DNA of 64,000 bases from positions 310,001 through 374,000 of the forward strand of contig NZ_CP140772.1 of assembly GCF_037893185.1 (NCBI RefSeq). Direction: 5' to 3'. The notes under the pieces are model-generated. The model was not told where the DNA came from. It made no database searches and saw only the letters and a list, made by a program, of their open reading frames with translations. Every line of letters begins with the position of its first letter. The first letter of the stretch is position 1. Made by a program: the position numbers and the translations under genes. Shown here piece by piece: positions 8,617 to 63,830 of the stretch. This DNA is from Chitinophaga sp. 180180018-3 (GTDB taxonomy: Bacteria; Bacteroidota; Bacteroidia; Chitinophagales; Chitinophagaceae).

Positions 8617-9828
8617 ATGAAATGGATACCGTTTATATTATTAGTGTTGATAAGTGCCTGTGGTAAAGGACGTGTGGAGATGGGCAATGAATTGGTACTA
8701 TCTCACGCTGAGATGGAAGCCTCCTGTCCTTATCTTACTAAAGATACTTCAGGAAAACCTGTGGTCTGCTGGGTGGAAAAAGCAAAGAATGGGAACACAG
8801 GGTATGTATACTATTCAGTATCTAACGATAATGGATATACGTTTTCTGATCCCGTTCAGATTGCCGCTTCAGCGGGAGTATATCCGCATGATGAAAATCT
8901 GCCGAAGATGCTGTTTATGCCGGGAGGCCGTGTGGTGGCTATGTTTGGTATAGAAGCAAATGATCCGCGGAATAAGTACGCCGGTAAAGTGATGTATACC
9001 CTGTCTGGCGACAATGGGAAAACCTGGCAGCCCGCCGTATCACTTGTTACCGATACAGCCGGTTACGATCAGCGTTATTTCGATCTGGCGTTGCTGCCGG
9101 GAGGAGAGGCCGCCGCTATATGGCTCGATAACCGAAAAGATACTAACGCAGAAGGCTCTACGCTTTATTTCAGTACTACCCGGAGTGGAAGCGGCTTCCG
9201 GGAGGCACGCCCGGTGGCTGCTACCACTTGCCAGTGTTGCCGCACCAAACTGTACGTGTCGGCCGATGGGAACGTTCATCTGGCATACCGGGATATCATC
9301 AACGACTCCATTCGTGATATGGTACATCAGGTGTCAACGGATGAGGGCAAAACATTTTCTGCGCCTGTGCGCATCAGCGCCGATAACTGGGTGGTGAACG
9401 GATGTCCTCACACGGGTCCTGCCATGACCGCCAACAGCAAAGGACTGCATTTCGCCTGGTTCACGATGGGAGGCGGACAGGGAGCTTTCTATTGCCGCTC
9501 AACAGATAACGGTAAAACCTATACGCAGAAAGAATCACTCGGAAAATCGCCTATGGCCAGGCATCCGCAAATGACTACCACAGGCGACGAAGTAATGATA
9601 ACGTGGGATGAACCAGTAAAATGGAAAAATGATTTCAACAGCCGTATTGGCTTTCAGTATAAATCAGCCGAAGGCAAAACAATCAACACCGGTTACCTGA
9701 CAGCTGACAGCACTTACGCCAATTTCCCTGTAGTAAATGCCCTAAACCCTGAAGCTGTGCTGGTGGCGTATAAGAAAAGAACACCCAAGGGCAGTGAAGT
9801 GGTAGTAAGGATGTTGAGACTGAATTAA
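8617..9828 (+). CDS. BNR/sialidase-fold lipoprotein with CxCC and GCPH motifs
   Basis: A 403-residue beta-propeller lipoprotein. The signal peptide ends in a lipobox (LISAC, Cys15). Several BNR/Asp-box turns are visible (SNDNGYTFSDP, SGDNGKTWQP, STDEGKTFSAP, STDNGKTYTQ). Two unusual motifs stand out: C205-Q-C207-C208 and N-G-C263-P-H265. From memory, propellers with CxCC and GCPxxGP motifs are annotated as exo-alpha-sialidases but lie beside copper-related genes such as Sco; I could not check this. The Arg triad expected of a true sialidase is not evident. It follows the TonB receptor by 4 nt. The last three sense codons and the stop lie inside a 53-nt palindrome arm. Metal-binding surface protein is my best guess; true sialidase activity is doubtful. 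Confidence 0.75.
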   Translation: MKWIPFILLVLISACGKGRVEMGNELVLSHAEMEASCPYLTKDTSGKPVVCWVEKAKNGNTGYVYYSVSNDNGYTFSDPVQIAASAGVYPHDENLPKMLFMPGGRVVAMFGIEANDPRNKYAGKVMYTLSGDNGKTWQPAVSLVTDTAGYDQRYFDLALLPGGEAAAIWLDNRKDTNAEGSTLYFSTTRSGSGFREARPVAATTCQCCRTKLYVSADGNVHLAYRDIINDSIRDMVHQVSTDEGKTFSAPVRISADNWVVNGCPHTGPAMTANSKGLHFAWFTMGGGQGAFYCRSTDNGKTYTQKESLGKSPMARHPQMTTTGDEVMITWDEPVKWKNDFNSRIGFQYKSAEGKTINTGYLTADSTYANFPVVNALNPEAVLVAYKKRTPKGSEVVVRMLRLN

Positions 9829-9942
9829 GAATTGAAAAAGAAGAATTAAGAATAAAGGCAGAGATAGTAAACACGAATGCAAACGTTGCTACTATCTCTG
9901 CCTTTATTCTTAATTCTTCTTTTTCAATTCTTAATTCAGTCT
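9817..9942. repeat. Long perfect palindrome P1 (53-nt arms, 20-nt spacer)
   Basis: Positions 9817-9869 and 9890-9942 are exact reverse complements over 53 nt. The spacer (AACACGAATGCAAACGTTGC) carries the family core: GATAGTA, a one-sided AAC, then a weak inner stem, then TACTATC. The left arm contains the last three sense codons and TAA stop of the propeller lipoprotein gene; the right arm touches the stop codon of the 47-residue minus-strand ORF. It sits between convergent genes and could terminate both transcripts. Confidence 0.95.
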
Positions 9943-10085
9943 TAGGCTCTCTCCAGGTACAATCCCTGCGCCGCAGCCCATCGTCCATAATGGCCTTTGC
10001 GGGAATTGCCAAAGTAGAAACGCCATTCGTCCTTCCATCTGGGATAGTACAGACGCAGCAAGTACATAGTGATAAATGTAAGCAT
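9942..10085 (-). CDS. Small hypothetical protein (47 residues)
   Basis: ATG at 10085 to TAA at 9944-9942. The peptide starts MLTFITMYLLRLYYPRW and continues with WRFYFGNSRKGHYGRWAAAQ; its composition (aromatic, basic, Gly) and lack of low complexity look like a real small protein, not noise. It lies downstream of the SDR gene on the same strand with a 138-nt gap and ends at the base of palindrome P1. I do not recognise a family. It is too short to be sure of; a membrane-associated N-terminus is possible. Confidence 0.45.
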   Translation of the reverse strand: MLTFITMYLLRLYYPRWKDEWRFYFGNSRKGHYGRWAAAQGLYLERA

Positions 10086-10223
10086 AGGGATATGGTTTCA
10101 AGTTCAGGATAGTCTTAGTTCAGTTGGCACCAATCTTTTACATACAATTGCTCAGATGTAAAAAATATGTTGATTTTTTCAAATATAAAAACTATCACTT
10201 ACCTTTGAAATCACATCAATGTG

Positions 10224-10979
10224 CTATTTTTTATCGAAGTAGTAAGCGTTCGCCTGCTGTAAAGGCGTCACTACCAGGTCGTTAATACAAACATGCGGAG
10301 GAAGACTGCTACAGTAGTATACCACATCCGCTACATCCTGGGCCGTTAACGGAATAAATCCTTTGTATACATCTTTAGCTTTGTCTTCATCACCCTTGAA
10401 CCTTACGAGAGAGAATTCAGTTTCTGCAGCGCCCGGATGTACCGCCGTTACCTTGATCCGGTAAGGCAACAGGTCTATCCGCATTCCCTGGGTAATAGCA
10501 TCCACGGCAGCTTTGGTAGCGCAGTAAACGTTTCCTTTGGCATATACCACTTTGGCAGCGGTAGAACCGATATTGATGATATGACCTTTAGTACGGGAAC
10601 GCATCCATGGAATTACCACGCGGGATACATATAAAAGCCCTTTCACATTGGTGTCGATCATGGCATCCCAATCTGCTGTATCGCCTTCATCAATGGTGCC
10701 AAGCCCTGCTGCAAGCCCGGCATTGTTCACAAGCACATCGATTTTCCTCCATTCTTCCGGAATGTTCCCCAATACGCTATTGACTTCTTCTTCTTTTCTT
10801 ACATCGAAATTTAATGCCAGCACATTGATACCAAATTCCTGGATAAGCTGGGTCTGCAATGCTTCCAGTCTTTCTTTGCGTCTGCCGGTTATTATCACGT
10901 CGTAACCTTTACCAGCAAACGTAGTTGCGCAAGCCTGACCAAATCCGGCAGTAGCACCGGTGATAAGAACAATTCCCAT
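10224..10979 (-). CDS. SDR-family NADP-dependent oxidoreductase (YdfG-like)
   Basis: A 251-residue classical short-chain dehydrogenase. The nucleotide-binding motif TGATAGFGQA is at residues 7-16, NNAG at about 85-88, the catalytic Ser in NIGSTAAK at about 137, and YCATK (Tyr/Lys) at about 151-155. The closest recognisable group is YdfG-like 3-hydroxy acid/serine dehydrogenases (NADP, malonic semialdehyde reduction), from GRRKERLEAL and the overall length. It is a single gene with its own promoter: an exact TAAATTTG -7 element lies at 11006-10999 on the minus strand, 20 nt before the ATG. Substrate is inferred only. Confidence 0.9.
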   Translation of the reverse strand: MGIVLITGATAGFGQACATTFAGKGYDVIITGRRKERLEALQTQLIQEFGINVLALNFDVRKEEEVNSVLGNIPEEWRKIDVLVNNAGLAAGLGTIDEGDTADWDAMIDTNVKGLLYVSRVVIPWMRSRTKGHIINIGSTAAKVVYAKGNVYCATKAAVDAITQGMRIDLLPYRIKVTAVHPGAAETEFSLVRFKGDEDKAKDVYKGFIPLTAQDVADVVYYCSSLPPHVCINDLVVTPLQQANAYYFDKK

Positions 10980-10998
10980 GATATGCAGTTTTTTGGTG

Positions 10999-11006
10999 CA
11001 AATTTA
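10999..11006 (-). promoter_or_regulatory. Bacteroidota -7 element for the SDR gene
   Basis: Reads TAAATTTG on the minus strand, an exact TAnnTTTG match, ending 19 nt upstream of the ATG at 10979. No good -33 TTG at 17-23 nt spacing. Confidence 0.5.
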
Positions 11007-11013
11007 CTAAGGT

Positions 11014-12942
11014 TCAGCGGATAAGGGTAACGGTTCCCTGTTTTGTGATGTCTTTCCCGTTGAAGTCCGTACCTTTTAAGATCCAGATGTAGGTGTCTAC
11101 AGGTGCAGGCCTGCCTTTGTAAGTGCCATCCCAGCCTGTGCGGAAATCTGTGGATGAATATACTTCAACGCCCCAGCGGTTGTAAATGCGGAAGTATTTG
11201 TATTGGGTAATACCTACCGGTATAAACCGGAAGCGATCATTCAGTCCGTCGCCATTTGGAGTAAACGCATTGGGAATATACAACTCCGGGCCAGTATAGT
11301 ATTTTACATTCACAGTGGCATAGCCGAAGCATCCCTGCTGATTGGATACACGCAATGTATACGATATATCCTGGTTGTAGTTCAGGACAGGATTGGCGAT
11401 CATCGGATTGCTCAGGCCGGCAGATGGCGTCCAGCTATAAAATTCGCCTCCGCTGCCCTGCATGACCAGCTGCTGCCCTCGGGCCAGAATGGTGTCGTGT
11501 CCGGCAAAAGGATTCACTTCATAGATCCTTACATTTTCAACGATCGTTTTTTCGCATTGTTTATCAGTCAGCAGTTTCATGGAAATCGTATATACGTCTC
11601 CTTTAGTAAATACATGCTCCAGCGTTTTTTGCGTGCCGGCAGTAATCAGGCTGTCGGCCAGATCAAAGCTCCATACATGACTGGTAATATGTCCGTACAG
11701 ATAAGAAGAGGTATCCGTAAACTGTATCGGATCGCCTTTACAGAGGCCGCTGATAGTGAATCCTGCTTTCAATCCCGGATAATTGCGGACAATGCCGGTA
11801 GCACTGTCGCTACAGCTCAGTCCGGGATTTACTACCATCTTAACGTGATATACACCGGTATCAGGATATTGATGATAGAACAGTGTTTTGTCTTTGGTCA
11901 GCGTATCTGTACCATCTCCGAAGGTCCAGTAGTAGGTAGATGTAAAACCCGCCATGCTGGAATTGCTGACAGGGATCTGCAGCGAAGGATCCTGTGTGCA
12001 ATTATTCAGCACCGGTGGGAAAATGGCGGTAATGTTTGTCTGGCAGTTGAATACAGTCAGCAGTATGTCTTTACTATGTGTGCCCAGGAAAGTTTTGCTG
12101 ACAGGATCATATTCATCCACACAAACAGTAATCACGTATTTACCTGCTGCTGTTGGAGTACATGTGATGATGCCGCTGGCAGAAATGGAAAGCCCGGGAT
12201 TGCCCGCCATTGGATTACTGCCATTATAAGGCGGAATATAGCGTACGGTGGTATTATAGGGCGGGGGAGTGGCAGAATTATTTTCATTGGCCCGGCCACT
12301 ACCGTCTGTTAATGCGTTGCACAGATGATAGACAAGGCTATCGCCATCTTCATCATAGGCGGCATAATTGAGCCGGAATGGTACGCTGTTGCATATAACA
12401 ATGGCGGTGTCTTTATTGAAGTACGCACTGTTGTTATTAGGCCTGCTTTCCGTGCCTGGTATGGTGGTGTAGTAGGTGGAACCTTCATGTTCTGAATCGT
12501 AGATGTTACTCAGCTTTTCGCCACGACAGCAACGTTGCGAGGAAATATAGTATCCGCCGGGAATAGGCGGAAGTTCAATAGAAGCATTGTAGAATGCTAC
12601 CTCCAGGTGTTGCGCCTGCGGGGCGAGACATGGATTTTTCAGCGTATCAATCAGCGGAAGGGTATGGTCAATGTAGAGGTAGGCAGATAAAACTTTGCCA
12701 CCGGAAGCGGTATATACATTTGCTGTAACGGGATTCTCAAATCTGTCGATACAACCTTGACGGTCGCCACAGGTAAAGTCTGCGTCGCGATATAGCTTGA
12801 GGGTGATGAGATAACGGTAGCGGGTATTATCTCCATTTCTTCCTAACGTCTTATAATAAATCTCGCCACCTATGATATGATATCCAGCTGCAAGAACAGG
12901 AAAGAAGCAGCAGCTCAATATCAGAAAAACTGCTTTCTTCAT
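11014..12942 (-). CDS. PKD-domain surface protein with gliding-motility/T9SS C-terminal domain (642 aa)
   Basis: Secreted protein with a signal peptide (about 1-18), an N-terminal domain starting HIIGGEIYYKTLGR that is shared with its neighbour, Cys-rich segments (SSQRCCRGE), PKD repeats (about 305-470, YYWTFGDGTDTLT) and a C-terminal domain beginning about residue 553 (ELYIPNAFTPNGDGLNDRF, IYNRWGVEVY, GWDGTYKGRPAPVDTYIW) that is the type B sorting domain of the type IX secretion system (TIGR04131-like). It would be exported by T9SS and attached to or released from the surface. It lies 64 nt downstream of a longer paralogue on the same strand. Function beyond adhesion or surface structure is unknown. 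Confidence 0.88.
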   Translation of the reverse strand: MKKAVFLILSCCFFPVLAAGYHIIGGEIYYKTLGRNGDNTRYRYLITLKLYRDADFTCGDRQGCIDRFENPVTANVYTASGGKVLSAYLYIDHTLPLIDTLKNPCLAPQAQHLEVAFYNASIELPPIPGGYYISSQRCCRGEKLSNIYDSEHEGSTYYTTIPGTESRPNNNSAYFNKDTAIVICNSVPFRLNYAAYDEDGDSLVYHLCNALTDGSGRANENNSATPPPYNTTVRYIPPYNGSNPMAGNPGLSISASGIITCTPTAAGKYVITVCVDEYDPVSKTFLGTHSKDILLTVFNCQTNITAIFPPVLNNCTQDPSLQIPVSNSSMAGFTSTYYWTFGDGTDTLTKDKTLFYHQYPDTGVYHVKMVVNPGLSCSDSATGIVRNYPGLKAGFTISGLCKGDPIQFTDTSSYLYGHITSHVWSFDLADSLITAGTQKTLEHVFTKGDVYTISMKLLTDKQCEKTIVENVRIYEVNPFAGHDTILARGQQLVMQGSGGEFYSWTPSAGLSNPMIANPVLNYNQDISYTLRVSNQQGCFGYATVNVKYYTGPELYIPNAFTPNGDGLNDRFRFIPVGITQYKYFRIYNRWGVEVYSSTDFRTGWDGTYKGRPAPVDTYIWILKGTDFNGKDITKQGTVTLIR

Positions 12943-13006
12943 GATGGGGATTACTGCTATCTTAATTTAACAAAAAAACAGCAGATCCGGTTCAATTCCT
13001 GCAACT

Positions 13007-15619: not shown

Positions 15620-15637
15620 AACAAGCTGAGTTTAAGA

Positions 15638-16429
15638 TTATAGTTGACAAAAGGCTATAAACTGTTCCAGGATCACATTGCTTTCTGTAGTGATCTCCCA
15701 CATACCCATGTGGCCCACGTTATTAAAAATATGTACACTACTGGTAGAAGGTAGTGTGATCTGCGGTAAAATATTGTCGAGCGGCACAGCATTATCATCA
15801 CTTCCTATGATAAACAAAACCGGTTTCCGCAAACTGCTGAGCACACTGGTTCTGTCTGGTCGGGCTGCCATTGCTTCATACCAGGCAATTAGCGCCGGTA
15901 ACTGGCATTCGAGGCACATCTTTACATAATCGTCTACCAGCCCGGGATGCTCATTTTTGCTGTATGGACTGAACATATTAGGCAGTATTTGCCGTAAAAA
16001 AGTTTCAGCACCATATTCTTCCATCATCTTAATGGATTTGCGCCGGCCTTCTTTTTTCTCTTCACTGTCGGGTTTAGCGGTGGAATGAAAAAGTCCCAGG
16101 CCTTTTACCAGTGAGGGATATTTTTCAGCCAGCGCCAATGCAACATAGCCACCCATAGAATGGCCAATGAGGATAGCTTCTTTAATATTTTCTGCCAGCA
16201 GGATGGAATAAACATACTCCGCCATAGATTCGATAGACAGGGGAGTTGTGAGAGGCGCAGCGGCCGTTCCAGGTAAATCAGGAATAATAAGGTGGCAATG
16301 GTTTTTTAACGTAGTTATTTGTTTGTTCCATAGAGCCGAATTCTCCGAAAAACCGTGTATGAGTACTACTGCAACGCCTTCACCTTCATCCAGCCAGGTG
16401 ATGTTTCCGTCATTGATTGATTTCCGCAT
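15638..16429 (-). CDS. Alpha/beta-fold hydrolase
   Basis: A 263-residue single-domain hydrolase. The oxyanion segment VVLIHGFSEN is at about 20-30, the nucleophile elbow GHSMGG at about 87-92 (Ser89), an acid in IIGSDDNAVP about 210, and the catalytic His in NNVGHMGMWE about 240. This is the esterase/peroxidase-like family with no lid-specific signature, so the substrate cannot be named. The ATG lies 20 nt inside the end of the lnt gene, so the two are translationally coupled. No signal peptide; cytoplasmic. Confidence 0.88.
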   Translation of the reverse strand: MRKSINDGNITWLDEGEGVAVVLIHGFSENSALWNKQITTLKNHCHLIIPDLPGTAAAPLTTPLSIESMAEYVYSILLAENIKEAILIGHSMGGYVALALAEKYPSLVKGLGLFHSTAKPDSEEKKEGRRKSIKMMEEYGAETFLRQILPNMFSPYSKNEHPGLVDDYVKMCLECQLPALIAWYEAMAARPDRTSVLSSLRKPVLFIIGSDDNAVPLDNILPQITLPSTSSVHIFNNVGHMGMWEITTESNVILEQFIAFCQL

Positions 16430-18020: not shown

Positions 18021-18231
18021 GAATTAGAAATTAGGAATGAAGAATTAAAGCGAAGATAAGTGCGGAAAATAAGAATTACGAATTGAGATGATAAGGACAA
18101 TGAAGAAATAATGAAAAGCAAAACGTCCGGCAGTTATACCGGACGTTTTTATTTATACTCTTGGGAAAAGTACGTTTATTACTGATCTATACCATTCTTA
18201 ATTCTTCACTCGTCATTCTCTATTCTCCATA
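18021..18231. repeat. Degenerate AATTAAGAATT-type repeat halves around the guaB terminator
   Basis: Between guaB (3' end) and lnt (5' end). At 18020-18060 the sequence AATTAGGAATGAAGAATTAA resembles a left arm of the palindrome family, and 18192-18230 (CATTCTTAATTCTTCAC) resembles a right arm, but the two no longer match well and a terminator hairpin lies between them. This looks like an old, decayed copy. Confidence 0.5.
18120..18150 (-). terminator. Rho-independent terminator for guaB (bidirectional form)
   Basis: AAAACGTCCGG, an 8-nt loop CAGTTATA, then CCGGACGTTTT: an 11-bp perfect stem. On the minus strand the stem is followed by TTTTGCTTTT, about 80 nt after the guaB stop; on the plus strand it is followed by TTTTTATTTA. 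Confidence 0.8.
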
Positions 18232-19704: not shown

Positions 19705-19741
19705 GATGCAATTATTAATCAGTTATAAAAATAATTGCACG

Positions 19742-21132: not shown

Positions 21133-21948
21133 ATGAAGATGAAATGGTTGTTAACCGGTTTGCTGATCACCAGTGCCTTCGCTTGTAAAACCACGGCTCC
21201 GGTAGCGGAAAAGAAAACAGTTCATACACAACTGATTCCGGAAGGCCCGGCATGGGCTGCATTGTGGCAACAACAATCCGGCGAATATAAAGCCCTATGC
21301 CTGCAGGCCTATCAGCTGGCTGCTTTGCGGCTCGATCAATACCTTACTGCCAAAGGCAATAAGCCGCTGGCAGTAGTAACAGATATCGATGAAACCGTAC
21401 TGGATAACAGTCCTTATTCCGTTCAGCAAGCCCTGGCCGGAAAAGGATACGATGATAAAAGCTGGATGGAATGGACCGCCAAAGCCGTTGCAGACACGGT
21501 TCCTGGCGCACCTGCCTTTTTTAAATATGCCGCATCTAAAGGAGTAAAAGTATTTTATATCACCAACCGTGCTGAAAGCGAACGTGCTGCCACCCTGAAA
21601 AATCTGCAACAGTATAACTTCCCGGATGCAGATAATCAGCACCTCCTGCTGAAAACAACGACTTCAGGCAAAGAGCCCCGCCGCCTGCAGGTATTACAGC
21701 AATACGATATCGTGATGCTCTTCGGCGACAACCTGAGCGATTTCTCCGCTATCTTCGATGGGAAACCTTTTGAAGAAAGGAATGCTGCCGCTCTCGGAGC
21801 TGCGCCGAACTTCGGCAGTAAATTCATCGTTCTCCCCAATCCTATGTATGGCGACTGGGAAGGCGCTTTGTACAATTTTCAGTATAAGCTTTCTACGCAG
21901 GAGAAGGATTCAATTATGAAAAGCAAACTCAGAACAATTAAGAATTGA
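21133..21948 (+). CDS. e(P4)-family acid phosphatase / 5'-nucleotidase lipoprotein
   Basis: A 271-residue lipoprotein (lipobox ITSAFAC) of the class C acid phosphatase family, HAD superfamily. Motif I is VVTDIDETVLDNSPY; motif II/III regions are VFYITNRAESER and IVMLFGDNLSDFS. Homologues dephosphorylate NMN and other nucleotides at the outer membrane so that nucleosides can be taken up. I chose ATG 21133, not the GTG at 21112, because that GTG lies inside a -7 promoter element and because 21133 gives a clean lipoprotein signal. The last four sense codons and stop (ACA ATT AAG AAT TGA) form the beginning of palindrome P2. Confidence 0.93.
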   Translation: MKMKWLLTGLLITSAFACKTTAPVAEKKTVHTQLIPEGPAWAALWQQQSGEYKALCLQAYQLAALRLDQYLTAKGNKPLAVVTDIDETVLDNSPYSVQQALAGKGYDDKSWMEWTAKAVADTVPGAPAFFKYAASKGVKVFYITNRAESERAATLKNLQQYNFPDADNQHLLLKTTTSGKEPRRLQVLQQYDIVMLFGDNLSDFSAIFDGKPFEERNAAALGAAPNFGSKFIVLPNPMYGDWEGALYNFQYKLSTQEKDSIMKSKLRTIKN

Positions 21949-22051
21949 GAAAGAAGAATTAAGAAGAAGAGCGGAGATAGTCGCGATATTTGTATTCGCG
22001 TTTACTATCTCCGCTCTTCTTCTTAATTCTTCTTTCTCAATTCTTAATTGT
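21934..22051. repeat. Long perfect palindrome P2 (48-nt arms, 22-nt spacer)
   Basis: 21934-21981 and 22004-22051 are exact reverse complements. The spacer has an inner stem (CGCGATA with TATTCGCG). Read on the minus strand the core is GATAGTAAACGCGAATA, so this copy is inverted relative to P1, P3 and P4. Both convergent genes end in the arms with the same four residues, -TIKN, encoded by identical bases. Confidence 0.95.
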
Positions 22052-29188: not shown

Positions 29189-29956
29189 ATGAAACAACTA
29201 CCCAACATACTTACCCTATGTAACCTTTTTTGCGGCGCCCTGGCGATTATATGTATACTATATGCGCCGGAGTATCGTGCTGAAATTAACGGTGCCGACT
29301 ATACGATTATCAGCCCCGAACCTGTTTATTGGGCGTCCGCCCTGGTAGTAATAGCCGGAATTTTTGATTTTTTTGATGGAATGGTAGCCCGGCTGCTTCG
29401 TGTGAGCGGTCCTATGGGAAAGGAACTCGATTCACTGGCAGATGTGGTGACTTTCGGTGTAGTGCCCGGTATGATGCTGTTCCGTTTGCTGCGCAGTGCT
29501 TATTTTCAGCAACCCGATGTATTTGACGTATCTATCATCAATCTGGCTCCGGCCTTGCTGGTACCTTGTTTTGCGGCTTACCGCCTTGCCAAATTCAATA
29601 TAGATGTAAGGCAATCCGAAAGTTTCATCGGAGTACCTACTCCTGCAGTAGCCCTGCTGGTGGCATCTTTTCCCCTGATCGTGCTTTTCAATCCGTTCAA
29701 CCTGGCGCATTGGTTCCAGAACATCTGGGTATTATACGTCGTTATCGGCTTGCTCTGTTACCTGATGGTAGCCGAAATTCCCATGATCAGCCTGAAGTTC
29801 AAGAATAAGAGCATTGCTGCCAACTGGCCACGCTTCCTGCTGATTATCCTCACTATACTGAGCATTCCGGTGCTGAAATTTGCTGCAGTACCGTTTGTTT
29901 TCGTGTGTTATGTGGTGCTGTCGGTGGTGGTGCCTCCGAAGATAATTACGAATTAA
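29189..29956 (+). CDS. pssA: CDP-diacylglycerol-serine O-phosphatidyltransferase
   Basis: A 255-residue integral membrane enzyme making phosphatidylserine, the precursor of phosphatidylethanolamine. The CDP-alcohol phosphotransferase signature is complete at about residues 64-90: DFFDGMVARLLRVSGPMGKE followed by LDSLADVVTFG (D-G-x2-A-R-x8-G-x3-D-x3-D). About seven transmembrane helices. The C-terminus (PPKIITN) ends inside the left arm of palindrome P5, whose bases encode the last two sense codons and the stop. Confidence 0.95.
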   Translation: MKQLPNILTLCNLFCGALAIICILYAPEYRAEINGADYTIISPEPVYWASALVVIAGIFDFFDGMVARLLRVSGPMGKELDSLADVVTFGVVPGMMLFRLLRSAYFQQPDVFDVSIINLAPALLVPCFAAYRLAKFNIDVRQSESFIGVPTPAVALLVASFPLIVLFNPFNLAHWFQNIWVLYVVIGLLCYLMVAEIPMISLKFKNKSIAANWPRFLLIILTILSIPVLKFAAVPFVFVCYVVLSVVVPPKIITN

Positions 29957-30057
29957 GAATTACGAATTACGAAATGCATAGCAGATATAAGCGAGTGATA
30001 TGTTATCCGCTTATATCTGCTATGCATTTCGTAATTCGTAATTCTTAATTCGTAATT
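29944..30057. repeat. Long perfect palindrome P5 (50-nt arms, 14-nt spacer)
   Basis: 29944-29993 and 30008-30057 are exact reverse complements; the arms are made of AATTACG and AATTAAG units outside and GCATAGCAGATATAAGCG inside. The core differs from the GATAGTAAACGCGAAT core of P1-P4. The left arm holds the pssA stop codon and the right arm ends 7 nt before the -7 element of purS, so it sits between two codirectional genes, not convergent ones. Confidence 0.95.
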
Positions 30058-44543: not shown

Positions 44544-46433
44544 ATGAAGTTTAGGGTTACAACGGGCAGATGCCTGGCCATCGGACTGCTGGCAGGCAGC
44601 TGTTTTCAGGCGAGTGCACAATCTGATCGCTGGCAGCAGCGGGTGAAGTATTCGATGGATATAAAGATGGATGCACCTGCTAATCAATTTAAAGGGCAGC
44701 AACATCTGGAATATTACAATAACTCACCTGATACACTGAAAAAAGTCTTTTATCACCTCTACTGGAACGCATTTCAGCCAGGCAGCATGATGGATGTCCG
44801 TAGCCGTGAATTAGGTAAAGTTGTTCTGGGAAGAGACAAAAACGGCAATGAACGCCGCGACTGGGACCCTCGTGTGCGTGACAGGATCTCTAAACTTCAA
44901 CCTAACGAAATAGGCTATCAGAAAATAATATCGCTGAAGAGAGATGGTAAGCCGCAGGCATTCAAAGTAGTGGAAACCATATTGGAAGTACCGCTGGATA
45001 AGCCTGTCCTGCCTCATTCAAAAACTGTTTTTGATATGGAATTTGAGGCCCAGGTACCAGTGCAGATCCGCCGTAGCGGCCGCAATAACTCCGAAGGGAT
45101 CGACTTTTCTATGTCGCAGTGGTATCCTAAAATGTGCGAATATGATTACGAAGGCTGGCATCCTACTCCCTATATTGCCCGTGAATTTTACGGCGTATGG
45201 GGCGACTACGATGTGAAAATAACCATCGATAAAAAATACGTGTTGGGAGGCACCGGTTACCTGCAGAATCCCCAGCAGATTGGCTACGGTTATGAAGCGC
45301 CGGGAACCAAAGTAAACAGGCCCGCAGGTAATACACTCACCTGGCATTTCATCGCCCCCAATGTGCACGACTTTGTGTGGGCTGCAGATCCCGATTACAA
45401 GCATATTACCCAGAAGGTAGATGGATTCACTGCACATTTCCTTTACATCGATAACGAGCATACACACGAAACCTGGCCTCAGCTGGCGAAGATGGTTCCT
45501 GTTGCATATGCTTATGTCAAGGCGCATTATGGCCCTTATCCATACGAACAATATTCCTTTATTCAGGGAGGCGACGGCGGTATGGAATATCCAATGGCTA
45601 CGCTGATTATGGGTAACGGAAAAATGGATGGCTTGTATGGCCTGGCCATGCACGAATGGATGCATAGCTGGTACCAGGGTATGCTGGGTACCAACGAAAG
45701 CCTGTATCCATGGATGGATGAAGGCTTCACCACTTTCGCAGAAAATAATATACAGTACAATACCATCGATTCACTGAAAGGCCGGAATCCACTGGAAGAT
45801 GCTTACGCCGGCTATTTTGCGCTGGTAAGAAGTCCATACGAAGAACCTGCATCCACGCATTCAGACCATTACAACACCAACTATGGCTACAGCCTTTCTG
45901 CCTATTCTAAAGGTGCAGTATTCCTCGAGCAACTTAGCTATGTGATCGGAACACAAAACCGCGATAGCGGACTGCTGCGCTATTACAGGGAATGGCGCTT
46001 CAAACACCCGAATGCGAACGACTTTATCCGGGTAATGGAAAAAGAAAGCAATATTCAGCTGGATTGGTACAGGCAATATTTCATCAATTCCGTAAAGCAT
46101 ATTGATTACGGCATCGACAGCGTATACCCGAAAGGCAATAAAACAGTAGTTCGCCTGCGCCGGATCGGGCTCATGCCTATGCCGATCGATTTTATGGTTA
46201 CAGATAAAAACGGAAATAAAGTGCTGTACTACATTCCGCTGTCGCTGATGTTCGGCGAAAAGCCCAATGATTATGCCGGCATAAAACGCATCGTAAAAGA
46301 TCCCTGGTATTGGACCAATACCAACTACGAAGTAGAAATAGATACTCCCTTATCTGAAGTACAGGAGCTGGAAATAGATCCCAGTCAACGTATGGCGGAT
46401 ATTGACAGAAGAAATAACAGAATGAGCTATTAG
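44544..46433 (+). CDS. M1-family zinc metallopeptidase
   Basis: A 629-residue exported peptidase. Signal peptide about 1-25 (FQASAQS); N-terminal beta domain; GGDGGMEYPMATLI carries the GxMEN-like exopeptidase segment; the zinc site is HEWMHSWYQ with the third ligand Glu 18 residues on in WMDEGFTTFAE. Secreted, probably periplasmic or surface, M1 aminopeptidase-like. It has its own leader and stands alone. It ends one codon before palindrome P3. Confidence 0.93.
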   Translation: MKFRVTTGRCLAIGLLAGSCFQASAQSDRWQQRVKYSMDIKMDAPANQFKGQQHLEYYNNSPDTLKKVFYHLYWNAFQPGSMMDVRSRELGKVVLGRDKNGNERRDWDPRVRDRISKLQPNEIGYQKIISLKRDGKPQAFKVVETILEVPLDKPVLPHSKTVFDMEFEAQVPVQIRRSGRNNSEGIDFSMSQWYPKMCEYDYEGWHPTPYIAREFYGVWGDYDVKITIDKKYVLGGTGYLQNPQQIGYGYEAPGTKVNRPAGNTLTWHFIAPNVHDFVWAADPDYKHITQKVDGFTAHFLYIDNEHTHETWPQLAKMVPVAYAYVKAHYGPYPYEQYSFIQGGDGGMEYPMATLIMGNGKMDGLYGLAMHEWMHSWYQGMLGTNESLYPWMDEGFTTFAENNIQYNTIDSLKGRNPLEDAYAGYFALVRSPYEEPASTHSDHYNTNYGYSLSAYSKGAVFLEQLSYVIGTQNRDSGLLRYYREWRFKHPNANDFIRVMEKESNIQLDWYRQYFINSVKHIDYGIDSVYPKGNKTVVRLRRIGLMPMPIDFMVTDKNGNKVLYYIPLSLMFGEKPNDYAGIKRIVKDPWYWTNTNYEVEIDTPLSEVQELEIDPSQRMADIDRRNNRMSY

Positions 46434-46558
46434 CTTTTAATTAAGAATAGAGAAAGGAGAATGAAGAATGCCAGCGAAGATAGTAAACGCGAAGATCACA
46501 TTCGCTACCATTTTCGCTGGCATTCTTCATTCTCCTTTCTCTATGCTTAATTAAAAGC
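46433..46558. repeat. Long near-perfect palindrome P3
   Basis: Left arm from 46433 (GCTTTTAATTAAGAATAGAG) pairs with the right arm ending 46558, about 48 nt with one mismatch outside and a few inside. The core again reads GATAGTAAACGCGAA ... ATTCGCTACCAT with the one-sided AAC bulge. It sits between convergent genes; the patatin-like gene's last two sense codons and TAA lie in the right arm. Confidence 0.92.
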
Positions 46559-50404: not shown

Positions 50405-50485
50405 AGAATTAAGAATTAGGAATGAAGAATTAAGAATAACGATGCCCGGCATTCTTCATTCCTGATTCTTAATTCGTAATTCTTT
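50405..50485. repeat. Imperfect palindrome P6
   Basis: GAATTAAGAATTAGGAATGA ... right arm TCATTCCTGATTCTTAATTC, one mismatch over about 26 nt, with an internal AATGAAGAAT/ATTCTTCATT pair round the loop AACGATGCCCGGC. A close relative, P7, lies on the other side of the glycosyltransferase gene. Confidence 0.85.
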
Positions 50486-51664: not shown

Positions 51665-51759
51665 AAGAAAGAATTAAGAATTAAGAATTGGGAATGAAGA
51701 ATTAAGAATGCCAGGCGTTGGTATTCTTCATTCTTCATTCTCAATTCTTAATTTCTTTC
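51665..51759. repeat. Imperfect palindrome P7
   Basis: GAATTAAGAATTGGGAATGA ... TCATTCTCAATTCTTAATTTC, three to four mismatches, loop GCCAGGCGTTGGT. It lies in a divergent promoter region (glycosyltransferase to the left, tgt to the right), so it cannot be just a terminator. Confidence 0.85.
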
Positions 51760-52919: not shown

Positions 52920-52945
52920 AAAACACGGACAATAAAATAAACTAA

Positions 52946-52953: not shown

Positions 52954-52960
52954 GGGTCAT

Positions 52961-55698: not shown

Positions 55699-55716
55699 TT
55701 ATAATTGTTTTTTGCT

Positions 55717-55756: not shown

Positions 55757-55763
55757 ATTTTTG
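55756..55763 (+). promoter_or_regulatory. recG: -7 element for recG
   Basis: TATTTTTG, exact TAnnTTTG, 44 nt before the proposed TTG start; begins in the T-run of the gltA terminator. Confidence 0.45.
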
Positions 55764-55807
55764 TTTTTCATCAAAACAGCATAGCCATTTCTACTTTTAC
55801 AGCCATA

Positions 55808-57898: not shown

Positions 57899-58089
57899 CA
57901 CTTTTGACGTTTATTAATTGAATAAATGAGATAAAGAAAAGGAAATACCTGAGTGGAGAATCCCTTGAATCTATTTACCCTTATTTCCGATTCAGCGTTT
58001 TTTCTGCTGCTCCCGACCGTAACAAATTGCCAGGCTTCTGCGTTTATAGTATTATATTAGTTATTCAGTTTAAAATAAATCTAATCCCG

Positions 58090-61000
58090 TTGAAATTTAC
58101 CTTCCCGACCGGCATTATTGGATTGATTGTTTTCTTTTTACTACCAGGACTTTCAGCCCGGGCACAGCAACGTGTAAATTATACACCGTTGAACTTTACT
58201 GAAAACAAAGGACAGTGGAACCAGGATATTGTATACCGGGCAAGTATGGATGCTGCAACAGTTTTTCTCAGAAAAACAGGATTTACCTTCCTGGTTTATA
58301 ATACAAAAGATCTTTACCAACTGAATGATTTTGTTCATGGTCACGCACATGCCACTGATTCTTCCTCTCACGTGGTTCCGATAAAAGGGTTTAAAGCTGA
58401 AGAACCGGTACCGGGCGGCGGCAGTGATGGTGGTGGCAGTGGCACCACCCCTCCAACCAGGCCGGGCACCCCTCCTCCTGTAAAGGGCCATGCATATACC
58501 GTTGATTTCCTGGGAGCCAATCCTAATGCGGAAATTGCACCTGAAAAAGCGCAGGAAGCTGTGGCGAACTACCTGATAGGGAACGATCCCAGCAAGTGGG
58601 CATCTAACGTAAAATCATTTCAGGGCATCAATTATAGCAACATCTATCCGGGTATAGATGCACATGTTTATTCTGAAGCATCCCGCCTGAAATACGATCT
58701 GATCATTCATCCCGGCGCCGATCCCGGTCAGATACAGATGCAGTATAACGGCACTACCGGCATGGAACTGAAGAAAGGACAGCTGTATATCCACACCAGC
58801 GTGGATGATGTAATTGAACAGCTGCCGTATGCCTACCAGTATATCAACAACGAACGTGTATCCGTAAAAGTGACTTACCGGCTGAATGGCACTAAACTCG
58901 GCTTTAATGTTTCAGGAAAATACGATCCCGCTTACCCGCTGGTGATCGATCCTATTTATGTTTTCTCCACTGTTTCCGGTTCCCGCGCCGACAACTGGGG
59001 CTTTACAGCCACCTATGATGCAGCGGGCAACTTCTATGGCGGTGGTATCGTATTTGGTCCGGGTTATCCTACCACACCAGGTGTGGTACAAAGCTCTTTC
59101 GGTGGTACCGTAGGTGGCTCCGACTTTGACATAGGTATTTCAAAATTCAATCCCTCCGGAACAAAACTGATCTATGCTACCTATATCGGAGGCAACGGAC
59201 TGGAGCAGCCACATAGCCTGTTCGTTGATCCGGCCGGCGATCTGATCATATCCGGCAGAACTACTTCCAATAACTATCCGGCTACAACAGTGGTCGGAAA
59301 ACGAGGCGGATGGGATATTGCCATCACCAAATTAAATCCTACCGGTTCTGCTTTTATCGGCTCCATGATCATTGCCGGAACGGCCGATGATGGCGTAAAT
59401 ATTACGGCCGACAGGCGTGCAGGTGGTAACTCCCTGCTGCGTAACTATGGCGACGATGCGCGAAGTGAAGTGGTTATAGATGGGGCTGGTTATATTTATG
59501 TGGCCAGCTGTACCCGCTCAACTGATTTTCCGGTTACTCCGGGCGTGTTTCAGGGGGCTAAGAAAGATGGGCAGGATGGCGTTATTATGAAAATCAATCC
59601 CCAATGCTCCGCATTGGTATGGGCTTCCTATCTCGGTGGAAGCGGCGACGATGCTGCTTATGTAATTGCGCTGAATGGAATGAATACGCTCTATGTAGCA
59701 GGAGGTACCGGCAGCTCCGATTTCCCCGGCGTAGCCGGCGGTCTCTATAGCGCTTACAGAGGCGGGATCTGTGATGGGTTTATTGCACATCTTTCAAATG
59801 ACGGCACAAAGATTATTCAAAGCACTTACCTGGGTTCCGACAACGCGGCGGCAGATCAGATTTATGGTATACAACTCGATAAAAACGGGTTCGTTTATGT
59901 AATGGGAACTACAGAAGGCGCCTGGCCCATTGTTTCAACCGGCGCCGATTTTTATAACGAAAATGGATTGCAGTTCATCTCCAAGCTGACACCCGACCTC
60001 ACGAAATTCGTCTATTCTACCACCTTTGGCAGATCAAGGAATCTTACAAGTGTCCCCAATCTTTCACCTACGGCATTCCTGGTAGACCGGTGTGAGAATG
60101 TATATGTGTCTGGCTGGGGCGGCGGTATTAACGTACAGCTGCACTATCCCAACTCCGATACCTACGGCCTGACTACCACACCCGACGCCCTGCAGCGTAC
60201 TACCGACGGGATGGACTTTTATTTTTACGTGTTACAGAGAGATGCTATCCGGGTAAGTCCTTCACAGGGACCGCTCTATGCCAGTTACTTCGGTGGGCGT
60301 GGATTGTATGAGCACGTGGATGGAGGTACCAGCCGCTTCGATAGAAATGGCATCATCTACCAGGGCATATGTGCCTGGTGCGATGTAAGTGCCAGTGGAT
60401 TTAAGCCTACTTATCCCACTACTCCCGGCGCCTATTCAAGTACACCACCTCCGGGCTGTAATTTTGGTGCACTGAAAATTGCTTTTAACCTGGATGGTAT
60501 CAAGGCTGGAATTAAAACCCTCGACCGCCGTAACAACTATTGCGTTCCGGATGAGGTGACATTTGTGGATACTACGCTGGTGCCTGGTAAAACATACGAG
60601 TGGTATTTCGAAGACGATAATACTACACTGAAAGGTGGACCGGAACTCGACACGGTAAAGCACACCTACAAAAAAACAGGGCTCTTTAAAGTACGGTTGG
60701 TTAAAATAGATCCTGCCAGCTGTAACTATTCAGATACCGCTTATATCACCCTGAAGCTGGGAGATAACAGAGCTACCCTTGACTTTGATGCAAAGAGAGT
60801 AGATCCCTGCGACAGCCTGAAGTATCAATTTACCAATGCTTCTACTGCCACTGATCCGTTCCGCGATAGTTCGTTTATATTAGACTTCGGTGATGGTACG
60901 CCTCCGGTTTATGTGGGAGTCAAACAATTCCCACTTTATCACTATTACAAAAACGCTGGTGTATATAACGCCACGCTTACATTGATAGATACTAATTATT

Positions 61001-61800
61001 GTAACGCGCCACAAACGCTTACCAAACCTTTGCGTGTAGCCATCAATGTGGTAGCATCTTTTAATGTGCCAAGCCCGTTGTGTGTTGGTACGCAGGTGCA
61101 AATGGATAACACTACCCTGGGCGGCGAATCGTTTACCTGGAAGTTCGGCGACGATGGCACTACTTCATCAGACCCTTACCCGGTGCATACATTCCAGAAG
61201 TCCGGAACTTTTGATATTAAATTGCTGGCGCTTGATCCTAATACCTGTAACAAAAAAGATTCTATCATCAAACAGGTAACAGTAGTGGATCCGCCTAAGA
61301 CCGACTTTTCTTACCAGCCACTTAAGCCGATAGAAAACGTACCGGTGACGTTCACCAATAATACCCTGTATGCGGATCATTATCTCTGGAACTTCGGGGA
61401 TGGCGATACCACCTCCGCAGTGAATCCCGTTCACCAGTACCTGAGAACCGGTACCTATAACGTATGTCTGACATCCTTTAATAAAGAAGGATGTTCGTCA
61501 ACGGAATGTAAACAGGTGAGCTCTATTGTGGTGCCTTTGTTTGATGTGCCCAATGCTTTTGCACCCAGTGGAAAGAATAATGTTTTTTATGTTAAAGCAT
61601 TTGGTGCAGTTAAATTCAACCTTAAAATATTTAATCGCTGGGGCCAGCTGGTCTTCGAAAGTTCGGATCCGCTTGTAGGATGGGATGGCAGATTTAAAGG
61701 TAATCTCCAGCCGATGGATGCGTATGCTTATATTGTGAACCTTGAATTTACAGATGGTACCAAGGGCAGCAGATCAGGAAGTGTAACCTTGTTAAGATGA
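58090..61800 (+). CDS. SBBP/PKD-repeat surface protein with T9SS C-terminal domain
   Basis: About 1236 residues from a TTG at 58090, which gives a clean signal peptide (TFPTGIIGLIVFFLLPGLSARA); a frame extension to a TTG at 58027 adds a second hydrophobic stretch. Order: N-terminal DUF7948-like domain (NFTENKGQWNQDIVYRASMD), a Gly/Pro-rich linker, SBBP beta-propeller repeats (about 300-800, TKLIYATYIGGNG, ALVWASYLGGSGDDAAYVIA), PKD repeats (about 860-1150, YLWNFGDGDTTSAVNP) and the gliding-type sorting domain (IFNRWGQLVFES, GWDGRFKGNLQPMDAYAYIV). Followed after 6 nt by a PorP/SprF gene, the usual partner for surface proteins of this class. Confidence 0.9.
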   Translation: MKFTFPTGIIGLIVFFLLPGLSARAQQRVNYTPLNFTENKGQWNQDIVYRASMDAATVFLRKTGFTFLVYNTKDLYQLNDFVHGHAHATDSSSHVVPIKGFKAEEPVPGGGSDGGGSGTTPPTRPGTPPPVKGHAYTVDFLGANPNAEIAPEKAQEAVANYLIGNDPSKWASNVKSFQGINYSNIYPGIDAHVYSEASRLKYDLIIHPGADPGQIQMQYNGTTGMELKKGQLYIHTSVDDVIEQLPYAYQYINNERVSVKVTYRLNGTKLGFNVSGKYDPAYPLVIDPIYVFSTVSGSRADNWGFTATYDAAGNFYGGGIVFGPGYPTTPGVVQSSFGGTVGGSDFDIGISKFNPSGTKLIYATYIGGNGLEQPHSLFVDPAGDLIISGRTTSNNYPATTVVGKRGGWDIAITKLNPTGSAFIGSMIIAGTADDGVNITADRRAGGNSLLRNYGDDARSEVVIDGAGYIYVASCTRSTDFPVTPGVFQGAKKDGQDGVIMKINPQCSALVWASYLGGSGDDAAYVIALNGMNTLYVAGGTGSSDFPGVAGGLYSAYRGGICDGFIAHLSNDGTKIIQSTYLGSDNAAADQIYGIQLDKNGFVYVMGTTEGAWPIVSTGADFYNENGLQFISKLTPDLTKFVYSTTFGRSRNLTSVPNLSPTAFLVDRCENVYVSGWGGGINVQLHYPNSDTYGLTTTPDALQRTTDGMDFYFYVLQRDAIRVSPSQGPLYASYFGGRGLYEHVDGGTSRFDRNGIIYQGICAWCDVSASGFKPTYPTTPGAYSSTPPPGCNFGALKIAFNLDGIKAGIKTLDRRNNYCVPDEVTFVDTTLVPGKTYEWYFEDDNTTLKGGPELDTVKHTYKKTGLFKVRLVKIDPASCNYSDTAYITLKLGDNRATLDFDAKRVDPCDSLKYQFTNASTATDPFRDSSFILDFGDGTPPVYVGVKQFPLYHYYKNAGVYNATLTLIDTNYCNAPQTLTKPLRVAINVVASFNVPSPLCVGTQVQMDNTTLGGESFTWKFGDDGTTSSDPYPVHTFQKSGTFDIKLLALDPNTCNKKDSIIKQVTVVDPPKTDFSYQPLKPIENVPVTFTNNTLYADHYLWNFGDGDTTSAVNPVHQYLRTGTYNVCLTSFNKEGCSSTECKQVSSIVVPLFDVPNAFAPSGKNNVFYVKAFGAVKFNLKIFNRWGQLVFESSDPLVGWDGRFKGNLQPMDAYAYIVNLEFTDGTKGSRSGSVTLLR

Positions 61801-61806
61801 TGAACT

Positions 61807-62829
61807 ATGAATCAGATCGTTAAATTACCGGTATGTTTGGCAATAATGCTGATGGTGGCAGTGGGAAGTTACGGTCAGGACCTTCACTTTTCGCAGTTCT
61901 TCAATTCGCCGTTAACCACTAACCCTGCCAATACAGGCTTTATTCCCGACGGGAATTACCGTCTTGGTATTAACTTCCGCGATCAATGGGCCAGTATTCC
62001 GGTGCCTTATAAGACCATGTCGGCTTACGGAGATTTTCAGCTGTTCCGCGACAAGCTGGAATATGGCTGGGTGGGTATTGGAGGCGTGATACTCCGTGAT
62101 GTGGCTGGTGCCGGCAACCTTACTTCCACCAAAGGATATGCGTCTATAGCCTATCACCAGTTGCTGGGCTTCAGCAGCTTGCTGTCGGCCGGTTTTAATA
62201 TCGGATCTGCCGGCAAACGGGTGGATATTACCAAACTTACTTTCGGGGATCAATGGAATGGAAAGTTTTTTGACGCTCAGATCCCTACCGGAGAACCTAT
62301 TACGCAAACGAGTATTAACTACTTTGATCTGCAGGCAGGACTTAACTACGCCTATTTTCCTACTGAAAATATCTACGTGAATGTTGGATTTTCTGTACAG
62401 CATATCAACACTCCCCGCGAAACCTTTTATACAGGGAATAATGTGGTACCCCGCCGTTACATAGGATTCCTGAATGCCAGTATCAAAATGAGCGATAAGG
62501 TCATCCTTAATCCGTCCGCTTACTATTCTACACAGGTGGGTGCAAGAGAACTGATGCTGGGAGCTAATGCCGCCTATAATTTGTCGGGCGACGGTGCGCA
62601 ACAGCTTTTTGGAGGACTCTATTACAGGGCTAATGATGCTGCTATTTTCCTGGTAGGTTACCAGATCAGCAATATCAAGATGATGTTTAACTATGACGTA
62701 ACTACCTCCAGTTTATCTACTTTCAATGGCCGTAGGGGCGCCTATGAAATCGGAATAGTTTACACCGGCCTCTATAGCAACCGTACATTCAATAACGCTA
62801 AGAGGTCTACCATCTGCCCGTCTTTTTAA
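61807..62829 (+). CDS. PorP/SprF-family type IX secretion membrane protein
   Basis: A 340-residue outer-membrane protein with signal peptide (about 1-22, GSYGQDL) and the family start HFSQFFNSPLTTNPANTGF. Remaining strands (LGINFRDQWASIPVPYKTMS, GLNYAYFPTENIYVNVGFS, GLYYRANDAAIFLVGYQ) fit the PorP_SprF barrel. Such proteins attach SprB-like adhesins with type B sorting domains, here almost certainly the preceding SBBP/PKD protein, 6 nt upstream. Confidence 0.95.
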   Translation: MNQIVKLPVCLAIMLMVAVGSYGQDLHFSQFFNSPLTTNPANTGFIPDGNYRLGINFRDQWASIPVPYKTMSAYGDFQLFRDKLEYGWVGIGGVILRDVAGAGNLTSTKGYASIAYHQLLGFSSLLSAGFNIGSAGKRVDITKLTFGDQWNGKFFDAQIPTGEPITQTSINYFDLQAGLNYAYFPTENIYVNVGFSVQHINTPRETFYTGNNVVPRRYIGFLNASIKMSDKVILNPSAYYSTQVGARELMLGANAAYNLSGDGAQQLFGGLYYRANDAAIFLVGYQISNIKMMFNYDVTTSSLSTFNGRRGAYEIGIVYTGLYSNRTFNNAKRSTICPSF

Positions 62830-62849
62830 CCGGGAGTATATAGCTATAG

Positions 62850-63047
62850 TTAAACGGTACCCTCACGAAAGGTATACATGAAATATTTCAGCTGATGGAA
62901 ACCCTGAGCGGCACTATCTCCGGAGCGTATGGTATTGGGTTGGTGCAGAAGAGCCGTATGGATATCATCTTCAATCGCACATTCATGCAACTTATAAAGC
63001 AAATAAAGCGGATATTTGATCCGGAAAAATATCTTAAACAGGAGTAA
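62850..63047 (+). pseudogene. Remnant of an FAD-linked oxidase (GlcD-like) C-terminus
   Basis: An open frame of 65 codons plus TAA, without start for its first part, preceded by an in-frame stop. It reads GIHEIFQLMETLSGTISGAY, GIGLVQKSRMDIIFNR and IKRIFDPEKYLKQE. This matches the C-terminal cap of FAD-binding oxidases (glycolate oxidase/D-lactate dehydrogenase: LGGTISGEHGIGLVQK ... IKxxFDPxxILNPGK), but the conserved E-H of SGEHGIG is A-Y and the NPGK end is lost. No other part of such a gene is present nearby. A short ATG at 62895 could still make a 50-residue peptide. The best reading is a decayed fragment left by a deletion or rearrangement. Confidence 0.7.
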
Positions 63048-63109
63048 GATATTTGATTGTTAAACTTTTATCCTGGTGTTTAGTTAAACATTAATTAATA
63101 AATGTGATC

Positions 63110-63691
63110 ATGAAACGTTTACTGATATGTATTTTCTTCCTGGCCGCTGCGCAACTGACGCAGGCCCAGTATTATAAAACGGACACGCTTTCCCATAAAG
63201 GATTCGACCGTTCCCGGCTGGTGTTGGGCGGCTCCCTGGGGATGGTGTTTGGAGACTATACCAATGTAGAGGTTTCTCCGCTGATAGGTTATCGCTTCAA
63301 CGATTACCTGGCGGCCGGTATCAACGTCAACGCCCAATATGGCCAGTTCCGCTCCAGGGACTATAATGGTAACACCCTTCAGCGCGATAAATACACCATC
63401 TTCGGTGGCGGTGTCTGGGGCCGGGTGTATCCGATACCAGTTCTTTTTGTTCACATCCAGCCTGAGTATAACTTCGTTAACCAGTCTACCACTTACTATC
63501 AAACCAGCGATAAGCAAACCTATAAAACCAACTACGGTGTGCCCAGCCTTCTTGTTGGAGCAGGTTATACCCAGGGTGTTGGCGGCCGCGTGGGAATCGG
63601 TATTTCTATTATGTATGATGTACTTCAGGATAACCGTTCCCCTTACCGGAATAATCTGATATATCGTGTAGGAGCAGGACTGGGGTTCTAA
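63110..63691 (+). CDS. Small outer-membrane barrel-like protein
   Basis: About 193 residues: signal peptide about 1-20 (LICIFFLAAAQLTQAQYYK) and then alternating strands (SRLVLGGSLGMVFGDYTNVE, LIGYRFNDYLAAGINVN, VFIHIQPEYNFVN-like) ending in GAGLGF with a terminal Phe. This looks like an 8-strand outer-membrane barrel without a named family. Start at 63110 (second ATG) is preferred over 63104. Stands downstream of the FAD-oxidase remnant and ends 25 nt before palindrome P4. Confidence 0.75.
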   Translation: MKRLLICIFFLAAAQLTQAQYYKTDTLSHKGFDRSRLVLGGSLGMVFGDYTNVEVSPLIGYRFNDYLAAGINVNAQYGQFRSRDYNGNTLQRDKYTIFGGGVWGRVYPIPVLFVHIQPEYNFVNQSTTYYQTSDKQTYKTNYGVPSLLVGAGYTQGVGGRVGIGISIMYDVLQDNRSPYRNNLIYRVGAGLGF

Positions 63692-63716
63692 GCAATAATT
63701 TCTCCTGAGCGGGGGA

Positions 63717-63830
63717 AATGAAGAACAGGGAATAAAAAATTAAGAATGAAAGCGGAGATAGTAAACGCGAATATCAAATTCGCTACTATCTCCGCTTTCA
63801 TTCTTAATTTTTTATTCCCTGTTCTTCATT
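63717..63830. repeat. Long perfect palindrome P4 (47-nt arms, 20-nt spacer)
   Basis: 63717-63763 and 63784-63830 are exact reverse complements. The spacer AACGCGAATATCAAATTCGC has a perfect inner stem GCGAAT/ATTCGC; the AAC before it has no partner and makes a one-sided 3-nt bulge. This is the cleanest copy of the family core GATAGTAAACGCGAAT ... ATTCGCTACTATC. It lies between codirectional genes. Confidence 0.95.

Follow-up and report, generated by a model that had tools for sequence, protein, structure and literature searches.

Long palindromes in a Chitinophaga genome as probable gene-less relatives of an element carrying a four-helix-bundle gene

The window examined here, a 64,000-nucleotide stretch spanning positions 310001–374000 of the 8,131,986-base single-contig genome of Chitinophaga sp. 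180180018-3, is punctuated by seven long palindromes. These are probably gene-less forms, akin to miniature inverted-repeat transposable elements (MITEs), of a small, little-understood selfish element that, when complete, consists of an arm, a four-helix-bundle gene of the PF05635 family, and the same arm inverted. An earlier note, made from the letters of the window, had reported the seven copies, four of them with perfect arms. All seven were found where it placed them, and the same four proved perfect: 9817–9942 (arms 53/53, with a type A core, GCAGAGATAGTAAAC, and overlapping the 3' end of the forward-strand open reading frame (ORF) at 8617–9828), 21934–22051 (48/48, overlapping the ends of both convergent ORFs), 29944–30057 (50/50, built from the words AATTACG and AATTAAG), and 63717–63830 (47/47, again with a type A core). 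None of these four encloses a gene, nor does the imperfect copy at 46433–46558 (50/53), which occupies the gap between two convergent stop codons. The remaining two, also imperfect, have no GC-rich core. One lies at 50405–50485 (24/25, at 50406–50475); the other, at 51665–51759 (32/35, at 51679–51753), is flanked by divergent genes and lies upstream of tgt. A single shuffled version of the window contained no palindromes, and Rfam returned no match at the gathering threshold. The copies draw on shared building blocks, as the note had claimed—AATTAAGAAT occurs 19 times in the window against 0.34 expected—and orthologous palindromes in the assemblies of relatives rule out an assembly artefact.

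The palindromes belong to a family dispersed through the genome. A sequence-blind palindrome finder, applied to 464 kb made up of the window and 20 further stretches, identified 24 palindromes, compared with none in each of five local shuffles. Outside the window there were 17 in 400 kb, 14 of which we assigned to the family by eye, and extrapolation therefore gives, very roughly, 280 copies genome-wide; the stretches were taken mostly at 400-kb steps (the first and last excepted), and the finder's cut-off of 22 misses weaker copies, one known copy having scored 20. The outer arms are near-repeats of the 7-nt words AATTAAG, AATTACG, and AATGAAG, such that arm self-identity at a lag of 7 reaches 0.53 in the palindromes versus 0.25 in the background; in a second species group the peak falls at a lag of 8. 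In most copies the arms enclose a GC-richer core of at least two types, GCGGAGATAGTAAACGCG and GCGAAGACCTAAGCGG, followed by a short loop. A more elaborate arrangement exists in the relative G034, where arms of CCAGGATTA words enclose an inner palindrome of different words (L064, 4715–5000).

Placement is skewed toward gene ends. Convergent-gene gaps hold 11 of the 22 palindromes that could be placed, against 39 of 263 among all gaps (p 0.00027; crude longest-ORF calls, with three palindromes judged non-family included), while some copies sit between divergent genes. By position at gene ends and between convergent genes, the palindromes qualify as putative two-way intrinsic terminators. The description of the window copies as intergenic needs some qualification: they lie between genes, but by the same crude calls several overlap the last 1–15 nt of a neighboring ORF. 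The heptamer can therefore supply a stop codon, and several palindromes span the interval from stop codon to stop codon or provide the stop themselves.

A core 18-mer was found at 11 loci in named genomes, four of them in Chitinophaga sp. BIN2 and within AATTACG-armed palindromes. Together with the shared genus of the genomes compared, the BIN2 matches place this genome in Chitinophaga. The other seven showed no such palindrome in the 170 nt inspected and appear chance-like, with heptamer runs adjacent to the match in one cyanobacterium (L030). Three tandem copies of AATTACG are present in 7 of 296 Bacteroidota genomes including this one; among the other six, the finder called a palindrome there in one (L159).

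The link to a gene emerged from an AATTACG-armed element of the relative G074, which had matches in ten plasmid records, one from Bernardetia and the other nine cyanobacterial; the window palindrome at 63717, used as a query in the same way, found no plasmid match. In the best two plasmid matches, the arms, perfectly inverted over 31 and 36 nt, bracket a gene annotated as "four helix bundle protein". The present genome encodes a single member of the corresponding family, PF05635 (S23/IVP; E 3.5e-24, 124 aa), at 8.116 Mb between secA and deoC, and this sole gene sits in the loop between the left and right halves of a family palindrome. The right end of the gene-bearing copy matches the palindromes at E 5e-13 (56 nt, 87.5% identity) and the left end at 2e-6; at E≤1, one end matched 25 of 36 palindromes and the other 24 of 36, whereas palindrome-masked DNA gave two matches per end, the best at E 0.13. 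The palindromes thereby have, as MITEs do, ends in common with a gene-bearing element. The four-helix-bundle ORF is the only gene seen between the arms of the full copy, no transposase is encoded there, and the window copies carry no PF05635 ORF. A structure search by sequence found 2rld as the only solved relative.

The same ends bear on two decayed copies proposed in the earlier note, an arm remnant at 5835–5877 and a longer stretch at 18021–18231 that encloses an ordinary terminator. With the palindromes of the 464 kb masked, four stretches still resembled element ends at E≤1, and two of the four are these decayed copies. Both thus match element ends, but weakly, at E 0.13 for the former (the best of the masked control) and 0.17 for the left part of the latter.

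The arrangement of a PF05635 gene between inverted arms extends throughout the genus and well beyond it. PF05635 occurs in 22 of 79 Chitinophaga genomes; 30 loci were examined among the 35 matches listed, and 29 were long enough for analysis (all but L206), including two partial genes and two with a stop. Inverted flanks scoring at least 16 surround 25 of the 29 loci, whereas none of 169 ORFs of matched size and 4 of 1203 genes have them. Of these four control positives, three were inspected: two are genes between two palindromes and one lies between a palindrome and a half-element remnant. A score of at least 14 is reached by 26 of 29 loci and by none of 216 shifted positions taken from these loci, and 27 of 29 exceed all 100 shuffles of their own flanks. 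A cross-locus control was discarded, the loci being related (86 of 798 control pairs scored at least 20). Arm words vary among these loci—AATTACG, AAAGCAT, TTAGCTT, ATTATGA, GTCCTAG, and GATTTACGG are all represented—and in places they connect genes with palindromes: AAAGCTATTG is common to the arms of one G090 gene and that group's palindromes, and GAGCGGAGAT to the arms of the G086 gene and the present genome.

Across the phylum, PF05635 was detected in 157 of 198 Bacteroidota genomes. Among 30 loci, the best-scoring and one per genome, 17 have arms scoring at least 14 versus 0 of 240 shifted positions, and 17 exceed all 100 shuffles; the other 13 are therefore without clear arms by this test. 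Homologues are present in 25 plasmid records, including the two found through their arms, and each of 11 further loci examined scores 17.5–42, above all 100 shuffles. These 11 derive from Cyanobacteriota (seven), Chloroflexota, Bacteroidota, Spirochaetota, and Bacillota, with two Nostoc loci being near-copies. Among arms scoring at least 14, lag-7 identity is 0.71 in the genus, 0.48 in the phylum (0.43 at lag 8), and 0.75 on plasmids. The plasmid genes at L270, L271, L275, and L277 lie between cas2 and cas1 (in Anabaena) or next to N-6 methylase, DISARM/BREX, or restriction genes.

The gap between secA and deoC offers a view of the element in several states at one site. Loci were collected from 31 of the 79 genomes (the 30 best matches and one chosen for its gene), 30 of them complete, and their states were assigned by eye. 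Four hold an intact gene between arms (this genome, G086, G074, and G029); the gene carries a stop in two (G100 and G071) and an internal deletion in one (G099); one has both arms but no gene (G034); two retain arm remnants (G030 and G073); one has a different, longer gap (G101); and 19 show none of these states, mostly having a plain terminator. The series shows that gene-bearing and gene-less forms are tied together at one place, and that the gene decays inside its arms.

Turnover of a related kind is evident elsewhere, with one site holding different palindromes, a plain terminator, or nothing in different species. For instance, the gidB–glycosyltransferase gap that houses the palindrome at 50405 is filled by AATTAAG words here, AAAGC words in G089 and G090, and CCAGGATTA words in G034 and G030, while further relatives have shorter hairpins or none. 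At the 46433 site G018, G002, and G059 have a plain terminator instead, as do several relatives at 63717. Read by eye, alternation between element and plain terminator recurs at G089 28343, 97176, and 106880, at G018 8527, and at other sites besides the two in the window. At G074:57346, also by eye, a new element occupies a position at which four relatives show no terminator and no palindrome. No target-site duplication was seen at the filled and empty sites read by eye, and the local sequence is often replaced. Neither the apparent relation to a gene-bearing element nor the frequency with which the palindromes stand in place of relatives' plain terminators was visible to the earlier note.

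How the arms retain their symmetry was addressed by aligning orthologous sites in close Chitinophaga relatives, compared in two groups of three species (over 140–160 kb) and five species (over 100 kb each). Arms often change in pairs in these alignments, and empty sites exist. Comparisons were confined to at least 70% identity and arms of at least 16 nt; the division into elements and terminators is ours, and comparisons at the same site are non-independent. A column-wise pair test was set aside, as heptamer runs shift the alignments. At 10 element sites, 30 ortholog comparisons left 888 pairs and 23 mismatches unchanged. Substitutions were paired in 30 cases and unpaired in 108, indel columns were paired in 27 and unpaired in another 27, and 10 cases were unclear. 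By our estimate, independent drift would give about one paired substitution. Over 21 sites including terminators, mean arm distance is 0.035 within a site versus 0.095 between species (Wilcoxon p 0.0008), and 55 of 71 comparisons favor arms being closer within a site than between species; since the arms were selected for symmetry, this result overstates the case.

Individual sites illustrate the process. At G018:127138, three species have three arm versions, mirrored wherever the arms still pair, and at G099:76269 a substitution and a one-base deletion, both mirrored, are seen among five species. The clearest single event is in the secA–deoC gap of G059 (L239), downstream of secA, where the right flank of a plain terminator, a flank that seven relatives share unchanged, is repeated in inverted form on the left side and lengthens the stem to a perfect 23: a one-step inverted flank copy and a clean template-switch footprint. 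In a separate case, G018:6193 is a short near-perfect palindrome of which G019 and G089 have the right arm alone, and it may have been regrown from the remaining arm. The earlier note's proposal that symmetry is actively maintained therefore survives in part. Paired arm change is real, but it is accompanied by 108 unpaired substitutions, and paired substitutions are seen at 6 of the 10 element sites and not at the other 4. Ordinary terminators change in pairs as well (11 comparisons, with 8 substitutions paired and 24 unpaired). Correction is therefore partial and not peculiar to elements. The hallmarks of hairpin template switching—paired multi-base change or an inverted flank copy—were found, if incompletely, and arm copying is supported as an incomplete process.

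Taken as gene-less relatives of a gene-bearing element, the palindromes suggest a plausible sequence of events. Loss of the gene would leave a hairpin still able to spread, probably with help from the four-helix-bundle protein. One arm would be copied from the other by hairpin-templated synthesis or by template switching during replication, allowing arms to drift between copies yet match within each copy. A hairpin at gene ends would, in turn, act as a two-way terminator and be tolerated. Several observations weigh against this account. No recombinase was found, Y1 being the only transposase family searched for. In the Bacteroidota arm test, the stricter cut of at least 16 was passed by only 11 of 30 loci. 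PF05635 is missing from G018, G019, G089, and G066, yet all four contain palindromes, including some that G089 alone has; one supporting search lacked a positive control. Among 20 relatives, 13 have a palindrome in the stretch compared, and PF05635 is present in 8 of these and in 2 of the 7 others (p 0.17), an association short of significance. Moreover, new copies often replace the local terminator rather than simply insert. At the secA–deoC site itself (L175, L190, L193, L241), and likewise at L182 and L200, a host-like terminator lies inside the arms. The left arm follows the upstream stop codon immediately and the right arm ends close to the next start codon, an arrangement that a single insertion does not explain. 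The direction of change, with genes either leaving the loops or entering them, has been decided only in part.

Some of the same evidence invites a different account, in which the hairpins are independent and their loops are invaded by a separate parasite, the four-helix-bundle gene, with the arms as its target rather than its ends. Genomes with palindromes and no gene, the great excess of gene-less copies over the single gene-bearing copy here, and the lack of significant co-occurrence would all follow, and there is a precedent in the intervening sequences (IVSs) that, in the available text of PMC4990558, lodge in rRNA helices. We nonetheless consider it unlikely: in five phyla PF05635 genes lie between heptamer arms of very different words rather than in assorted hairpins, and in G100, G071, and G099 the gene is breaking down inside its own arms. 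Less probable again is that ordinary terminators were lengthened and kept symmetric by template switching alone, with slippage and gene conversion as the source of the shared words and with a secondary link to the gene. In its favor are the plain terminator of G059, with its flank copied inverted in one step, and the paired changes in ordinary terminators, but an element at G074 57346 where four relatives have no terminator or palindrome, and a gene–arm association far above controls, speak against it.

Were selection on RNA hairpins acting as two-way terminators, together with compensatory mutation, sufficient for the symmetry, no DNA-level copying would be needed. The excess in convergent gaps and the exchanges with plain terminators are in keeping with such selection. 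We regard it as very improbable, since perfect stems of ~50 bp are longer than a terminator requires, some copies lie between divergent genes, and there is no clear preference for G-U mismatches. In palindromes with a single direction of transcription, mismatches comprised 22 G-U, 16 A-C, and 31 others (G-U versus A-C, p 0.42), which fits DNA-level copying, albeit as a weak test. There is least of all to recommend the idea that these are REPINs, hairpins formed from repetitive extragenic palindromic (REP) sequences, moved by a REP-associated tyrosine transposase (RAYT) of the Y1 family. Dispersed extragenic inverted repeats with one mate gene do reproduce the REPIN pattern, as set out in the accessible part of PMC3116915. 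The Y1 family, PF01797, is absent from G018, G019, G089, G034, G090, and G030; in the present genome it has no match genome-wide (5 of 14 control genomes were positive), bearing out the earlier note's remark that no RAYT is nearby, with Y1 the one transposase family covered. PF01797 does occur in 19 of the 79 Chitinophaga genomes, and at 12 Y1 loci in relatives (L143–L154, by eye) the adjacent REPs are of the GGGCT-nnn-GCCC, CTCCG-nn-AGGAG, CCCCGGG, or CGCCCC-nnn-GGGGCG type, unlike the palindrome family, members of which were near only L148 and L149, some 2 kb off. The palindromes are not REPINs because there is no Y1 gene here and those of relatives adjoin other REPs. A reverse transcriptase was also considered as a mate and rejected. 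The genome's one PF00078 gene (L142, 3.198 Mb), which we take to be a retron's, has a long upstream hairpin that is unrelated in sequence by eye; just downstream of the gene, between convergent genes, lies a 27/28 hairpin with a AGCGAAGAT stem (L142:2493–2557).

The closest known counterparts of the proposed gene-bearing element are the IVSs. In Coxiella, the available text of PMC4990558 describes a 23S rRNA IVS with an S23p ORF preceded by two or three tandem heptamers, a terminal-inverted-repeat stem of 28 bp interrupted by a single mismatch and a bulge, and, in one strain, a 176-bp ORF deletion; it also cites earlier ideas that IVSs were once mobile and that the ORF was the mobility part. 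The present elements match this outline in their PF05635 ORF (in the full copy only), terminal inverted-repeat stem, and terminal tandem heptamers, reflected in the lag-7 peak, and the two systems further resemble one another in ORF deletion and in a proposed selfish or mobile origin. They differ in location: IVSs occupy helices 9, 25, or 45 of 23S rRNA according to the same partial source, whereas here the full copy lies between secA and deoC and gene-less palindromes are scattered between genes throughout the genome. Being outside rRNA, they are not classed as IVSs; with arms that are runs of 7–9-nt words, they look like IVS-like elements that live elsewhere.

Other systems share single features. 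REPIN–RAYT pairs likewise combine many extragenic hairpins with a single-copy mate gene (PMC3116915, from the same portion), but the mate here is a four-helix-bundle protein rather than a Y1 transposase, and the stems, ~50 bp long, are made of heptamer words. Template-switch origin and repair of hairpins, as described in the available part of PMC8794818, involves the same rewriting of one arm from the other with paired multi-base changes, in RNA genes there and in a dispersed bacterial element family here. The coding palindromes of Nematomorpha mitochondria are also numerous, long, and perfect inverted repeats, but lie inside mitochondrial protein genes (PMC6649704, in part). The heptameric repeats of Nostoc and Xanthomonas are alike in their 7-nt unit, and the opening of the abstract of PMC4692102 connects them with neither a gene nor palindromic arms. 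A search of titles and abstract openings, partial in coverage, found no literature joining PF05635 genes to dispersed palindromes, which is weak evidence of absence. PF05635 proteins resemble the Avd protein of diversity-generating retroelements (PMC10053308, in the text available), a likeness that may hint at a role in nucleic-acid copying.

We tentatively extend these observations to a class of prokaryotic mobile element spanning at least five phyla, although we would not yet favor the proposal in full. Each member would carry one PF05635/IVP, Avd-like gene between inverted heptamer arms, would spread by hairpin-templated copying without a recombinase of its own, and would shed gene-less palindromes into terminator sites; the IVSs of 23S rRNA would be members lodged in rRNA, and the protein a mobility factor. 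The palindromes provide a natural set of sites at which the copying of hairpin arms can be observed. The link to PF05635 could account at once for the palindromes and for an orphan family of proteins that is known from insertions in ribosomal RNA. If the protein does drive the hairpins, the role of S23/IVP, the origin of IVSs, and the litter of heptamers and perfect palindromes in some genomes would become one testable system.

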